Shown in pieces: positions 32,644 to 37,278 of a stretch of 41,330 nt of DNA; position 1 is the stretch's first letter, and each line of letters begins with the position of its first letter. Position numbers and translations under genes: made by a program. Origin of the DNA: a filamentous cyanobacterium CCT1. Lineage in GTDB: Bacteria > Cyanobacteriota > Cyanobacteriia > Phormidesmidales > Phormidesmidaceae. Below the pieces are notes generated by a model. The model was not told the DNA's origin. It ran no database searches and saw only the letters and a list, made by a program, of their open reading frames with translations. The stretch spans positions 1-41,330 of the forward strand of contig PYER01000026.1 of the NCBI GenBank assembly GCA_003017855.1. The letters are read 5' to 3'.

Positions 32644-34044
32644 TCATCCCGCTCGCAAATGCCAGGCCCGGGGCTGCAAAAACGTAGAGATTCCCGCCAG
32701 CGACAGCGTTGCCCCCAAACCCGAGTGGCCTCGACCGCTCCAGGGCAAGCGAGGGCTGACGCGATCGCAGCAGTTCCAATACGCGCTCCCAGTCTTAAGC
32801 TGGTGCAGAATGCCCACCGCCCGCTCCCGATCTGTTCCATACACCGCCGCCGTCAGCCCGTAGGGCGTATCCTGCATCAGAGCCACGGCTTCCTCATCGC
32901 TGGCCACTCGCTGAATGCCGATCACCGGGCCAAAGGTTTCTTCTTGCATGACGGTCATGGTGTGGTTGACTTCGGTGAGCACCGTGGGGGTAAAGTACCA
33001 GCCGGGGCGATTGAGCCTTTCGCCGCCGCAGCGCAGGGTAGCCCCCTTAGCCAAAGCATCCGCCACTTGATCCGCCAGGATACTGAGCTGAGGCTTACGG
33101 CTCACCGGGCCAAGGTAGGTGTCTGGATCAGTGGGGTCGCCCAGTTTAAAGCTCTTCACCGTGGCCATGAACACCTCAAGAAACTCGTCATACACATCGA
33201 TATGGACGTAGATGCGCTCCACCGCGCAGCAGCTTTGGCCATTGTTATAAAACGCCCCATCCGCCAGCCCCGCTGCCGCCGCCGCCACCTTTGCATCGGC
33301 GCAGACATAGGCTGGGTCTTTGCCGCCCAGCTCTAGCTGAGTGCGGATCAGTTTTGGGGCGGCTGCGATCGCAATCTTCTGCCCCGTCGCGTAGGAGCCC
33401 GTAAAGAATACTCCATCAATCGGCTGCTCCAGCAGCGCCGCCCCGCTCAGCCCCGAGCCAATGATGGGGATGAAAATGTTTTGAGGAATGCCGGACTCGT
33501 GGAGAAGGGATACGATCGCCCCTCCCGTAAGCGTGGCAAACTCCGACGGCTTGTACAGCACCGCATTACCCATCAGCAGCGCCGGAATGAACACATTTCC
33601 CCCCACGAAATAGGGGTAGTTCCACGCCGAAATATTGGCGATCACCCCCAGCGGCTCCTGAGCGATCGCCTCCTCCAACACTCCCATCCCCGGCAGCGCC
33701 ACCGCTGGCTCAGCATAAACCCGCTCTGGAGCCAGTACCTGAGCCGCATGCTCCACAAAGAAATCAATTCGCCCCGGCACCGCCAAAATCTCATTGCGCG
33801 CCTGGGTAATCGGCTTACCGGTTTCTGCGGTGAGCAGCGCCGCCAGCGCATCGACCCGCTCGATCAGCAGCTCCCGAAACCGCAGGATGCACTTGATGCG
33901 ATCGGCCAAAGGCAGCGCCGCCCACCCCAGCTGCGCCGCCCGCGCCCTGGCATATTTTTCGGCGACAGTAGCGCGATCGTCCACCGGAATTTCTTGAATG
34001 AGCGCTTCAGTAGCGGGGTTAATAATGGAAAGAACGTCAGCCAT
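32644..34044 (-). CDS. Aldehyde dehydrogenase family protein
   Basis: 466 residues. N-terminal IINPATEALIQEIPV, cofactor region SAWNYPYFVGGNVFIPALLMGN, general base in LELGGKDPAYV, catalytic Cys in NNGQSCCAVERIYV (~264-277; two adjacent Cys) and C-terminal NCCDRVSPRLPWSGRGHSG. This last block is characteristic of a subgroup with broad specificity whose substrate is not fixed. Transcribed on the same strand as, and following, the iron alcohol dehydrogenase, so alcohol to aldehyde to acid is a natural reading. The 370-base gap between them is largely occupied by a structured inverted repeat. It could oxidise a gamma-glutamyl-aminoaldehyde (see findings), but this is inference. Confidence 0.92.
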   Translation of the reverse strand: MADVLSIINPATEALIQEIPVDDRATVAEKYARARAAQLGWAALPLADRIKCILRFRELLIERVDALAALLTAETGKPITQARNEILAVPGRIDFFVEHAAQVLAPERVYAEPAVALPGMGVLEEAIAQEPLGVIANISAWNYPYFVGGNVFIPALLMGNAVLYKPSEFATLTGGAIVSLLHESGIPQNIFIPIIGSGLSGAALLEQPIDGVFFTGSYATGQKIAIAAAPKLIRTQLELGGKDPAYVCADAKVAAAAAGLADGAFYNNGQSCCAVERIYVHIDVYDEFLEVFMATVKSFKLGDPTDPDTYLGPVSRKPQLSILADQVADALAKGATLRCGGERLNRPGWYFTPTVLTEVNHTMTVMQEETFGPVIGIQRVASDEEAVALMQDTPYGLTAAVYGTDRERAVGILHQLKTGSAYWNCCDRVSPRLPWSGRGHSGLGATLSLAGISTFLQPRAWHLRAG

Positions 34045-34106
34045 AGCGATTAAGAAATACTGGAACTGAGGAGCAATTCAAGTGATGGGGTTGTTTATAC
34101 CTTGGG

Positions 34107-34389
34107 TGGATGGTGGGCAATGCCCACCCTACAGCAGCTTAGGTCGATCGCAGAGTAGGACAGATTACTTCGCAGAACAGAGGTTTAAACCGATGATCGA
34201 TAAGTCCTTTCCGTGAGGTGAAGGACGGCGGAACGTCCTTCTCGATGGGGGGCTGGGGCCAGCGAAATGGCCCCAGCGGTAGATTTGGCTTCAGCTCAGA
34301 TTGTGCGCCGCGATCGATCTCCCATAGGCCAAGACAATGGTGCATTGCTTCGCGTTGGCGGAGCCTCGCCTTAGCGTTATGCACCCTAT
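34107..34389 (-). repeat. Structured inverted element, copy A
   Basis: A 283-base non-coding element that is the inverted counterpart of 35631-35890. On the plus strand it begins with the GGTGGGCA/TGCCCACC palindrome (34111-34128), then a 74-base core (34141-34214) with only three differences from copy B. Stem-loops follow: GAAGGAC/GTCCTTC (34220-34226, 34235-34241; loop GGCGGAAC), GCTGGGGCCA/TGGCCCCAGC (34252-34261, 34268-34277), TTGGC/GCCAA (34285-34289, 34328-34332) and GGTGCAT/ATGCACC (34339-34345, 34379-34385). It ends in the head ATAGGGTGCAT read on the minus strand. Stem arms differ from copy B in paired, compensatory fashion. Confidence 0.8.
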
Positions 34390-34414
34390 AGTCGAACAGA
34401 AAACCGCAAGGTGA

Positions 34415-35599
34415 TCAAAAAGCATCTTGATAGATAGCGTGGAAATCTCTCTCCGTAACGGCTCTAGGATTCAACGGGTGACAACCATCCTTAATCGCCA
34501 CTGCCACCAGCGGCCCTAACCTATCGGACGTCACCCCTAAAGCCCCTAACGACGCCGGAATCCCAATCGCCCCCGACAGCCCCACAATCCACTCCACAAA
34601 CTCCCGCCCATCGGTCGCCCCTGGCTGCACCACCCGTGCCATCCGCAAAAACCGCTCCGGCTCCGCCGCCAAATTAAACCGCATCGCCGCCGGCAGCATA
34701 ACGCCATTCGCCAACCCATGGTGCGTGTCGTACACCGTCGACAGCGCATGGGCGCAAGAGTGAGTCACACCAAGCCCCTTTTGAAACGCGATCGCCCCCA
34801 TCATCGACGCATTCAGCATCCCTCCTCTGGCCGCTAGGTGTGCCACCGCCGTCGCTTCATCAAACCGTTCCCCCGCCTGTAACCGCTGAGCAAAGTCCAC
34901 GCAGGCCTTCAAGTTCTGCGCCACCAGGTGAATGCCCTCCAGGGCAATACCGTCGCAGAGTGGGTTAAAACCCTTCGCCAAAAACGCCTCAATTAGATGC
35001 GTCAGCGCATCCATCCCTGTCGCGGCAGTAATTTTGGCCGGTAGCCCCAGCAGCAGCTCCGGGTCAGCCAGCACCACCTTTGGCAACAGCTGCGGGTCGA
35101 AAACAATCTTTTTAGCGTGGGTGTCGTCGTCCGAAATTACCGCACTGCGGCCAACTTCGCTGCCGGTGCCCGCCGTGGTGGGGATAGCCACAATCGGCGG
35201 AATCGGCTGATCGATCGCGCGGGTGCTGTGGCCGTCTTCGTAGTCGAAGAGGTGGCCGGGGTGGTTGGCCATGAGGGCGATCGCTTTGGCTACATCCATG
35301 GGCGCACCGCCGCCAACCGCGATAATGGCATCGGCCCCGCTGGCTTTCCAGGCGTCAATTCCGGCATTAACTTGGGAGACGACGGGGTTGCCCCAGACGC
35401 CGCTAAAGGTGGCGGCATGGGAGGCGACGAGGATGGTTTCTAGTTCTGGAAACCAGGGTAGCTGGGCGACATCTTTGTCGGTGACGATCAGGACTCGCTG
35501 AATGCCCAGAGCGGTGAGTTCGGTGGGGAGTTCGTGGCGTGCCCCTGGGCCGAAGCGAATGCGGGTGGGGAAGTTGTAGGTGTGAAGCGTAGAAGCCAT
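34415..35599 (-). CDS. Iron-containing (type III) alcohol dehydrogenase
   Basis: 394 residues. NAD-binding GGGAPMDVAKAIALM (~95-109), metal ligands Asp and His in MDALTHLIEAF (~195-205) and two further His in THSCAHALSTVYDTHHG (~277-293). All expected ligands of the Fe-ADH family are present. These enzymes interconvert alcohols and aldehydes with NAD(P); lactaldehyde/ethanol/1,3-propanediol-type members are alike and the substrate is not resolved here. Upstream AAGGAC is a plausible ribosome binding site for the ATG at 35599. The gene sits exactly between the two inverted structured elements (ends 25 and 31 bases away), so gene plus elements form a composite-looking unit. Confidence 0.93.
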   Translation of the reverse strand: MASTLHTYNFPTRIRFGPGARHELPTELTALGIQRVLIVTDKDVAQLPWFPELETILVASHAATFSGVWGNPVVSQVNAGIDAWKASGADAIIAVGGGAPMDVAKAIALMANHPGHLFDYEDGHSTRAIDQPIPPIVAIPTTAGTGSEVGRSAVISDDDTHAKKIVFDPQLLPKVVLADPELLLGLPAKITAATGMDALTHLIEAFLAKGFNPLCDGIALEGIHLVAQNLKACVDFAQRLQAGERFDEATAVAHLAARGGMLNASMMGAIAFQKGLGVTHSCAHALSTVYDTHHGLANGVMLPAAMRFNLAAEPERFLRMARVVQPGATDGREFVEWIVGLSGAIGIPASLGALGVTSDRLGPLVAVAIKDGCHPLNPRAVTERDFHAIYQDAF

Positions 35600-35630
35600 T
35601 CAGAATTTACGTCCTTAAAAATCAAGAACT

Positions 35631-35890
35631 GTAGGGTGCATCCGCGCAGCGATGCACCATTGCCTTTGGCTCAAAACCCTGCACGCCCACAAGATTTTGG
35701 GTTGAGAGCCAAACCTGCTGCTGGGGGCGTTCCGATTGCCCCCAGACCCCGTCGTCCAGGGCCGTTCCGCCGCCCTGGACCCAACGGAAAGGACTTGCCG
35801 ATCATCGGTTTAAACCTCTGTTCTGCGAAGTAATCTGTCCTGCTCTGCGATCGACCTGAGCCGCGTAGGGTGGGCACTGCCCACCATCCA
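35631..35890 (+). repeat. Structured inverted element, copy B
   Basis: 260 bases, non-coding. The head GTAGGG is followed by stem I GGTGCATC/GATGCACC (35635-35642, 35651-35658), stem II TTTGGCTC/GAGCCAAA (35665-35672, 35706-35713), stem III CTGGGGGC/GCCCCCAG (35721-35728, 35738-35745) and stem IV GTCCAGGGC/GCCCTGGAC (35754-35762, 35772-35780). A 74-base core (35784-35857) includes GGTTTAAACC and the palindrome CCGATCATCGG. The element closes with a GTAGGGTGGGCA palindrome at 35865-35890. Core identity with copy A is 71 of 74 bases in opposite orientation. It occupies most of the space between the GS-like and alcohol dehydrogenase genes. Confidence 0.8.
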
Positions 35891-35952
35891 CACTGGCCGC
35901 CGGCTGATCAACCCGATCGCCGGACGAACGAACGTTTGCTCCTGCGGGTCTT

Positions 35953-37278
35953 CTAAATATTCACGTATTGGTTCATCTCCCAGGCGGTGATTTGGGCGTT
36001 GAAGGCTTCCCATTCCTTCGCTTTCATTTCAAGGAAGGTTTTGGCTCCGAGTTCGCCCATCATGCCCATTAGCAGGGGGTCCTGCTTGAGGGCGGCCATG
36101 GCCTCATAGAGGTTGTGGGGCAGGGTTTGCAGGTTGGGAAACTCGTCGCCGCGGGCAAACAAGTTTTCGTCGATGCGCTGTCCTGGGTCGGCCTGGGTTT
36201 TGATGCCTTCGAGGCCAGCGGCGAGAATGCCTGCGGTGGCCAGGTAGAGGTTGACGGCGCCGTCAATCATGCGGCACTCGAAGCGGCCTGTATCGGGAAT
36301 GCGGATCAGGTGGGAGCGGTTGTTGCCGCCGTAGGAGATGTAGCGAGGGCTCCAGGTGCTGCCGGAGGTGGTGCTGCTGGCACCTAAGCGGCGGTAGGAG
36401 TTGACCGTAGGGGCGCAGAGGGCCGCTAGCCCTTTGCCGTGGGCGAGCACCCCCCCGAGAAAGTTGTAGCCCAGGGGCGAAAGGCCGCCGCTGTCAGCTC
36501 CTTCGGCAAAGAGGTTGGTGTCGCCCTGCCACAGGCTGTTGTGAACGTGGCCGCCGTTGCCGGTGATGTGGCTAAAGGGCTTGGGCATAAAGGTAGCGGT
36601 AAAGCCGCGCTGCTCGGCCAGGGTTTTGACCATGTACTTGAAGAACACGTGGCGATCGCAGGTCGTTTTGGCATCGCTGTAGGTCCAGTTCAGCTCAAAC
36701 TGGCCGTTGGCGTCTTCGTGGTCGCACTGGTATGGCCCCCAGCCCAGGTCTTCCATATAGGTGACCAGCGTTGAAATCAGGTCAAACTGACGCATCAAGT
36801 TGAGCTGGTCGTAGCAGGGGCGCTCGGCGGTGTCTTTGGGGTCAGCAATTTCGTACCCTGTCTCGGTCTGGCGCAGCAAAAAGAACTCGGCCTCTACCCC
36901 AGTCTTGAGGCTGTAGCCCAGCGCTGCAGCCTGGTCAATTACCCGGTTCAGCATCATGCGAGGCGCAGCGGGGAAGGGTTCGCCTTCGTAGTACACATCG
37001 CTGGCTACCCAGCCCACGGTTGGCTCCCAGGGCAGCTGTATCAGCGAGTCGGGGTCGGGCACGGCGGCAATTTCTGCCGCCTCTGGCCCCAGGCCCAGGT
37101 TGGAGGCAAACGAGCAGAAAAATGCGCCGTCTTTTTCTACCCCAGCCATTTGCGACGCGGGCACCAGCTTGGCCCGGGTACCCCCCAGCAAGTCGGTGTA
37201 GGAGACTAAGAAAAACTTGATGCCGAGGGCCTTGGCCCTTTCTGCCAGGCTCTGCACCTGAGTCAACATGCCGACCAT
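35953..37278 (-). CDS. glnT: GlnT-type (type III-like) glutamine synthetase / gamma-glutamylamide synthetase
   Basis: 441 residues, beta-grasp plus GS catalytic fold. Key marks: FFLVSYTDLLGGTRAKLVP at the N-terminus, VEAEFFLL, GPYQCDHEDANGQFELNW, the ATP/metal segment NGGHVHNSLW (~241-250), NSYRRL, GNNRSHLIRIP and FECRMIDGAVNLYLA. Length (~440) and the DHEDANGQFE block match the rhizobial GlnT/TIGR03105 branch, which also includes gamma-glutamylmethylamide synthetases, rather than the 470-residue GlnA or 720-residue GlnN of cyanobacteria. It therefore probably ligates glutamate to ammonia or to an amine. A perfect NtcA-type site lies upstream at 37332. Start is the ATG at 37278; MLTQ at 37269 is an alternative. 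Confidence 0.88.
   Translation of the reverse strand: MVGMLTQVQSLAERAKALGIKFFLVSYTDLLGGTRAKLVPASQMAGVEKDGAFFCSFASNLGLGPEAAEIAAVPDPDSLIQLPWEPTVGWVASDVYYEGEPFPAAPRMMLNRVIDQAAALGYSLKTGVEAEFFLLRQTETGYEIADPKDTAERPCYDQLNLMRQFDLISTLVTYMEDLGWGPYQCDHEDANGQFELNWTYSDAKTTCDRHVFFKYMVKTLAEQRGFTATFMPKPFSHITGNGGHVHNSLWQGDTNLFAEGADSGGLSPLGYNFLGGVLAHGKGLAALCAPTVNSYRRLGASSTTSGSTWSPRYISYGGNNRSHLIRIPDTGRFECRMIDGAVNLYLATAGILAAGLEGIKTQADPGQRIDENLFARGDEFPNLQTLPHNLYEAMAALKQDPLLMGMMGELGAKTFLEMKAKEWEAFNAQITAWEMNQYVNI

Follow-up and report, generated by a model that had tools for sequence, protein, structure and literature searches.

Two inverted copies of a small repeated element flank the gene for an iron-containing alcohol dehydrogenase (ADH) in the window, i.e. 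the whole 41,330-nucleotide stretch of cyanobacterial DNA that we analysed, and we lean towards interpreting these copies (hereafter A and B) as old, now immobile members of a MITE-like family (non-autonomous DNA transposons) of Nodosilinea and relatives with a twin-hairpin DNA core. The inverted pair reported by the initial annotation is indeed present and goes far beyond chance: comparison of the window with itself yields arms of 105 nt at 34134-34238 and 35760-35864 that are 90% complementary, and outer arms of 27 nt at 34106-34132 and 35865-35891 that are 96% complementary. The 74-nt stretch 34141-34214 differs from 35784-35857 at three positions, as claimed, and stem IV does read GAAGGAC/GTCCTTC in A (34220-34226 and 34235-34241) and CCAGGGC/GCCCTGG in B (35772-35778 and 35756-35762, minus strand), with three of the seven pairs altered on both arms. 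The loop of this stem, described as identical in both copies, is GGCGGAAC in A and GGCGGAACG in B, the latter having one additional G. The stretches proposed as a unit of ~260-285 bases exist, but they are composite, consisting of an element of 134-135 nt and separate palindromic repeats on either side of it.

Copy A occupies positions 34157-34290 on the plus strand (134 nt, the unit common to 17 aligned copies of the same genome) and copy B positions 35707-35841 on the minus strand (135 nt), both matching with 148.2 bits a covariance model (R1) built from the 17 own-genome copies. The twin-hairpin core of A, at 34206-34276 on the plus strand, matches a model of the core (R2) with 93.8 bits. 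It comprises, on the same strand, hairpin IV (34220-34241, GAAGGAC-GGCGGAAC-GTCCTTC) and hairpin V (34253-34276, CTGGGGCCA-GCGAAA-TGGCCCCAG); the counterparts in B, on the minus strand, are hairpin IV at 35756-35778 (CCAGGGC-GGCGGAACG-GCCCTGG) and hairpin V at 35721-35745 (CTGGGGGC-AATCGGAAC-GCCCCCAG), all four being delimited by sequence and covariation. A ~21-nt insertion of the GTAGGCCG... type separates the hairpins in two copies of the own genome (L010, L016) and at site A of loci L191 and L194.

The accompanying palindromic repeats are of two kinds. REP1 is GTAG-tagged and was recognized from the inverted arms, on the 5' side of A at 34106-34132 (GTAG on the minus strand) and on the 5' side of B at 35865-35891 (plus strand). 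REP2, a palindrome of the GGTGCATTGC...GCACCCTA type, lies on the 3' side of A at 34339-34388 (delimited by own-genome matches) and on the 3' side of B at 35628-35671 (window self-comparison). The two kinds of GTAG-type repeats thus stand outside A and B in matching relative order. Among the matches listed, at least 18 further short matches to REP1 and at least four to REP2 occur in the same genome without the element. The combination of a GTAG tag with a multicopy palindrome of 20-40 bp, which defines GTAG-type REPs, characterizes these flanking repeats only and is not found in the core.

The ADH gene itself (34415-35599, minus strand; Pfam PF00465) is part of a conserved neighbourhood that includes genes for an aldehyde dehydrogenase (32644-34044, minus strand; PF00171) and a glutamine synthetase-family protein (35953-37278, minus strand; PF00120). 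ADH was found at E <= 1e-120 in 15 of the 26 genomes of the genus. All 15 loci have the glutamine synthetase gene next to ADH, and 13 have the aldehyde dehydrogenase gene on the other side, the latter not being found in L197 and L203 within the bases remaining to the contig end. The gene order glutamine synthetase-iron ADH (15 loci), extended by aldehyde dehydrogenase (13 loci), suggests a linked function. Copy A is present in 12 of the 15 loci, copy B also in 12, and both in 11, always in constant orientation. L195 lacks B, L203 lacks A together with the aldehyde dehydrogenase gene, and L199 and L202 are without full copies but with apparent remnants at site A (recognized by eye; the L202 remnant scores 18 bits). 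Since the copies recur at orthologous ADH loci in the same orientation, the pair is an old inherited arrangement, i.e. two old insertions passed on together. In L197 and L198, two of the 11 loci in which both are present, A and B of one genome are alike in both hairpin types, possibly as a result of gene conversion across the ADH gene. The idea of an ADH-specific cassette or composite transposon was rejected: the convergent pairs encountered in L074 and L113 (1.5 kb apart) turned out to be the ADH locus of other species, and further copies adjoin other genes. The two copies do bracket ADH, as initially described, but they represent sites of family members that are not special to this gene.

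A search with R1 retrieved 19 matches in the window's own genome (Nodosilinea-like, 6.85 Mb in 546 contigs), and the alignment of 17 of these copies has 57 invariant columns out of 157, which is not attributable to chance. Further copies were found in other genomes as well, giving 36 of 96 genomes with matches (the own genome included), distributed as 20 of 26 genomes of the genus (with 1-34 matches each), 16 of 32 other genomes of the family and none of 38 outside it. The hosts retrieved by a pattern scan were, among the matches listed, Nodosilinea, Leptolyngbya, Phormidium tenue, Tildeniella and similar taxa, and no stretch of a viral collection scanned with the same pattern matched, so no viral carriers were seen there. 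The genomic context was evaluated for 26 of the 40 R1 matches of genome G025 and for the copies of G008 (21), G012 (21) and G011 (15). For 55 of these 83 copies, a copy with the same two flanking regions exists in at least one of the other three genomes, and much of the family is therefore old and immobile. Literature searches at the level of titles and abstracts, with subscription literature mostly outside their coverage, returned no description of the element; within these searches, the proposal of an undescribed multicopy structured element is borne out, with hairpins that covary in many copies.

To describe this covariation, we calculated mutual information with average-product correction from 205 distinct copies. 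Three pairs of stem IV occupy ranks 1-3 (z 23-28) and are paired in 94-100% of the copies; pairs of stem V score lower, and no further helix appears among the 70 best column pairs. A stem III with a changed but still paired position, included in the original description, is thus not evident. The column pair 89/98 reaches z 22.8 yet does not base-pair, and because such non-pairing columns also score high, linkage within subtypes must add to the covariation signal. An alignment of the core alone (71 nt, stems IV and V; 43 sequences from several genera) was compared with 500 shuffles, none of which reached the observed proportion of paired cells (92.6% against 81.0% in shuffled alignments), the number of double-change cells (84 against 25) or the covariation score (0.324 against 0.125; at most 0.133 when the partners were slid). 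Two weaker measures discriminated less, with nine pairs showing a double change against 6.8 in shuffles (19 of 500 shuffles reaching this value) and with 19 pair types against 18.7 (283 of 500), the latter not being above shuffles. Stems IV and V hence covary in both analyses, and their fold is well supported.

Across genera the 5' half of the element varies, with the core CCUUUCCGYGRGGUC-stem IV-UCGANGGGGUCU-stem V being retained; the unpaired stretches TTTAAACCGATGATC and TCCTTTCCGT are conserved as well. An outer stem TTTCCGT/ACGGGG was considered and discarded, as it shows no covariation. A candidate third pairing connects CCG with CGG in the loop of stem IV, paired in 97.7% of the 43 sequences with one double change, a second one being discernible by eye in L332. 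It is the persistent part of a potential pseudoknot in which TTCCG further upstream would pair with CGGAA of the loop; the two outer pairs of that helix are lost in other genera. The CCG/CGG pairing may represent a pseudoknot and, if real, would favour a role of the core as RNA.

Indications of mobility come from young copies in two genomes. Intact ones are bounded by imperfect terminal inverted repeats (~16-20 bp) and have TA at both termini, as do MITEs of the IS630/Tc1-mariner type, and most measure 258-261 bp or ~310 bp. In G025, identity between copies reaches 96% over 262 bp; such copies open with CTAGAGCACCGGTTCAGTAT and close with an imperfect inverted version of it. When both terminal repeats were demanded with at most five mismatches each, they were detected in 10 of 26 copies examined, nine of the 10 having TA at both ends, with lengths of 258-261 bp in seven cases and 228, 276 and 289 bp in the others. 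In G033, belonging to another genus, copies are up to 98% identical over 315-327 bp and the carrier of 286-312 bp has different termini (TAGGGCTGATTCATTC and its inverse), found in nine of 21 copies, eight of the nine with TA. No termini were detected in shuffled flanks. The carriers in G025 and G033 thus share the same core and differ in their termini. Copies A and B are without these termini, and in the main subtype, to which they belong, both ends were detected in one of 16 own-genome copies (16 of the 19 having enough flank), one of 21 in G012, one of 21 in G008 and none of 15 in G011; a degenerate terminal pair can be seen by eye in the own copy L013. Because the terminal repeats are absent from them, A and B are classed only as relatives of MITEs of the IS630/Tc1-mariner type.

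One insertion could be compared with unoccupied sites. In L301, the G025 copy starts precisely where the stop codon of the upstream gene has its TA, and the two relatives that could be aligned that far, one of them the window's own genome, read AACTAAC with no element. No element was found at this locus in 14 other genomes matching the upstream flank either (best score 8.3 bits), 11 of them compared with both flanks. The insertion point thus lies at a TA, and since the 3' flank of the site has diverged, a duplication of TA is a candidate only. No ORF longer than 120 amino acids lies between the paired termini (17 of 35 Nodosilinea matches, 10 of 30 G033 matches), and no autonomous partner or transposase gene was found between the matching termini examined or recognized by eye beside the 83 copies. 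Short core-less elements whose terminal repeats are of the same kind (CTAGAGCAYCGGTACAGTAT-type) were also seen, of 162-170 bp in the own genome (C72:12430, C119:1650 and C446:59205; L463, L466, L472) and of 105 bp in G012 (L452, L456, L464, L467); these are separate small MITE families.

The element tends to lie in gaps on the 3' side of genes. With ORFs from a simple in-house caller and orthologous sites counted separately, the 71 element-bearing gaps comprise 51 codirectional, 18 convergent and two divergent ones, as compared with 118, 32 and 74, respectively, among 224 other gaps of the same loci, and divergent gaps are thus depleted of elements (2/71 against 74/224, p 1.6e-8). Relative to codirectional genes, the element points either way about equally often (32 against 27). 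At orthologous sites, a 105-nt part of the element is identical at a proportion of 0.80 for A (55 pairs from 11 of the 12 A copies, L200 with its incomplete 5' side being left out) and 0.83 for B (66 pairs), whereas the four-fold degenerate sites of ADH reach 0.60 and 0.58 in the respective comparisons; the element scores above them in 54 of 55 A pairs and in all 66 B pairs. With the same aligner, the 70-nt flanks reach 0.62-0.71, so part of the excess over four-fold sites is alignment optimism, and the element surpasses its two flanks in 41 and 51 of 55 pairs (A) and in 61 and 66 of 66 pairs (B). A and B of different genomes are 0.81 identical, i.e. as alike as orthologs, which leaves room for homogenization by conversion.

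Does the core then act as RNA or as DNA? The initial annotation took the compensatory changes as a sign of selection on a folded functional RNA. A transcript under such selection is expected to tolerate G.U pairs above A.C mismatches; 105 distinct aligned copies have 1608 Watson-Crick pairs, 16 G.U and 15 A.C among 1664 lettered cells, and no such tolerance is apparent in this comparison, which rests on 31 cells, i.e. small counts, and has a control of six tRNAs that is too small. Both strands fold alike as RNA (z-scores of -3.6 and -3.2 for A, -2.6 and -4.2 for B), and folding as DNA gives z-scores of -2.7 to -3.1. The loop of stem V is inverted in three of the 105 copies (91 forward, 11 unclassed), and the loops of L406 and the L202 remnant also look inverted. 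Orthologous sites display a few hairpin types that switch wholesale between sites; in the window, A and B are of different types, and both types recur at either site in other species. As whole types swap in the way that gene conversion or template switching would produce, the compensatory changes that distinguish A from B are in themselves no evidence of selection on an RNA fold, and the original argument is not supported in view of the G.U counts, the similar folding of both strands, the inverted loops and the swapping types. A guide or omega (HEARO-class) RNA is likewise not upheld. Searches of Rfam at gathering cut-offs gave no match for the window or for eight loci with relatives, copy A obtained at E <= 10 only a weak miRNA match far below the cut-off of that family, and inspection by eye of the ORFs beside the 83 copies from four genomes revealed no recurrent nuclease or transposase gene family. 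A role of the core as DNA is somewhat better supported than a role as RNA, which is weakened.

It is nevertheless worth weighing what a functional RNA would explain, namely a family of small regulatory or guide-type genes transcribed from one strand, with stems kept by selection on the transcript. Strong covariation, conserved loops and the conserved unpaired TTTAAACCGATGATC and TCCTTTCCGT, conservation in place above four-fold sites, significant folding and the possible CCG/CGG pseudoknot with its one double change among 43 sequences and another seen by eye would all suit such a gene. We still consider it unlikely, as G.U is no commoner than A.C, both strands fold comparably, three of 105 loops are inverted, the orientation to neighbouring genes is even, Rfam at gathering cut-offs is silent, hairpin types are exchanged between sites, and young copies bear terminal repeats. 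Several of the same observations fit a structure devoid of function, in which matching arms would arise in palindromic DNA through template switching and gene conversion, and covariation would follow in the absence of selection on the fold. The arms are near-perfectly Watson-Crick with few G.U pairs, loops are inverted in three of 105 copies and apparently in L406 and the remnant of L202 as well, the hairpin types of A agree with those of B in L197 and L198 (two of 11 loci), and template switching accompanied by loop inversion has been described for hairpins in the available part of a published account (PMC8794818). Such a process alone would leave the conservation of loops and linker across genera unexplained, as well as the ortholog identity of 0.80-0.83 against ~0.6 at four-fold sites unless all of it is due to gene conversion, and we regard it as a possibility to be entertained with some scepticism.

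The location of the element invites yet another reading, a bidirectional 3'-end module used by the host, with hairpins ending or stabilizing transcripts arriving from either side and hence kept on both strands. In 69 of the 71 gaps the element follows the 3' end of one or both neighbouring genes, its position is shared in 55 of 83 copies and it is strand-symmetrical; avoidance of promoters alone, however, predicts the same placement, neither A nor B has a T-tract after hairpin V, distances to neighbouring genes vary widely, and the conserved 5' half is left unaccounted for, which makes this reading improbable. Least plausible, to the point of being very doubtful, is a single-strand element of the IS200/IS605 or REP/RAYT type recognized by a Y1 transposase, with the GGT found before the stems in many of the 43 copies aligned acting like a GTAG tag. 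IS200/IS605 elements have subterminal hairpins and are not known to bear terminal inverted repeats. The derivation from this group suggested by the initial annotation is not supported, because intact copies do have terminal inverted repeats, with TA at both ends in the young ones. GTAG-type repeats do flank A and B, and cyanobacteria carry such REPs according to the part of the source available (PMC3733652), but these repeats are also found elsewhere without the element, and no transposase family was recognized beside the copies.

We therefore return to the MITE-like family as our working interpretation. Its members would have been moved in trans by a DDE transposase of the IS630/Tc1-mariner type at TA, often within CTAG, and the core may act as DNA, as a hairpin or cruciform extruded from either strand. 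It could be a cis module aiding movement or persistence of the element or, alternatively, a promoter-avoiding module on the 3' side of genes that is tolerated or used by the host. Gene conversion between copies, together with repair of the palindromes, would keep the arms matched and so may have produced the seemingly compensatory pattern of A and B.

Matches to the core model extend beyond the family of hosts. R2 has matches in 40 of the 63 genomes of the family and in 53 of 388 genomes sampled from the class (a sample drawn from a larger group, with 12 candidates scored in each genome), 13 of these lying outside the family. Twelve of the 13 were searched again, 11 yielding several matches at E <= 0.05 and one a single match. 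The outside matches, at ~27-50 bits, consist of GC-rich hairpins arranged in tandem whose stems and loops are different ones; they are likely homologous to the core. In G294, nine of 17 copies, picked by score, were examined; seven of them have an identical 69-nt core, from which an eighth departs by an inverted loop. Identity among the copies is 87-94% over 158-280 bp, and their flanks are of two kinds. At loci L399-L407 of this genome, two sorts of repeat carrier contain the core, and a ~45-nt direct repeat lies on both sides of one of them. Within the window's family, carriers of the core have two terminus types; in G294 there are two flank types. It is conceivable, though we would not count on it, that the core predates the genera, being perhaps class-wide, and constitutes a DNA module capable of transfer, which several MITE families whose termini are unrelated have acquired because hairpin extrusion aids movement or survival or because hosts use it. 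Were the core such a shared module of unrelated MITEs, it would point to selection on a gene-less part of a transposon. In any case, the family provides a natural case of hundreds of copies, many of them orthologous, across genera, with strong covariation that does not have the appearance of RNA selection, and so offers a means of telling RNA function apart from maintenance of palindromes at the DNA level.

Some features of the element are reminiscent of known systems. The HEARO or IscB omega RNA is also a dispersed structured element in cyanobacteria; the element described here differs in having no Rfam match at gathering cut-offs and no recognized nuclease. The GTAG-tagged REPs, as far as the available part of their description goes (PMC3733652), are likewise palindromic repeats occurring in cyanobacteria, and two kinds adjoin A and B, but our core consists of two tandem hairpins without a GTAG tag that are embedded in a larger unit. 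The MITEs of Anabaena sp. 90, 77-541 bp long (PMC3542288), and Nezha (cited in PMC3049150 and PMC10969869) are similarly short, mostly intergenic, multicopy and equipped with terminal inverted repeats; the accessible parts of these sources, which allow comparison by description only, make no mention of a core shared by elements with unrelated termini. A further parallel is offered by RUP and BOX of Streptococcus pneumoniae, small interspersed repeats that are now slow-moving, the terminal repeats of RUP being like those of IS630-Spn1 and BOX being modular with predicted stem-loops, according to the portion of the source at hand (PMC3049150). Unlike in those repeats as presented there, no partner insertion sequence was identified for the element reported here, the termini differ between its carriers, and an internal, covarying twin-hairpin core is common to them across genera.
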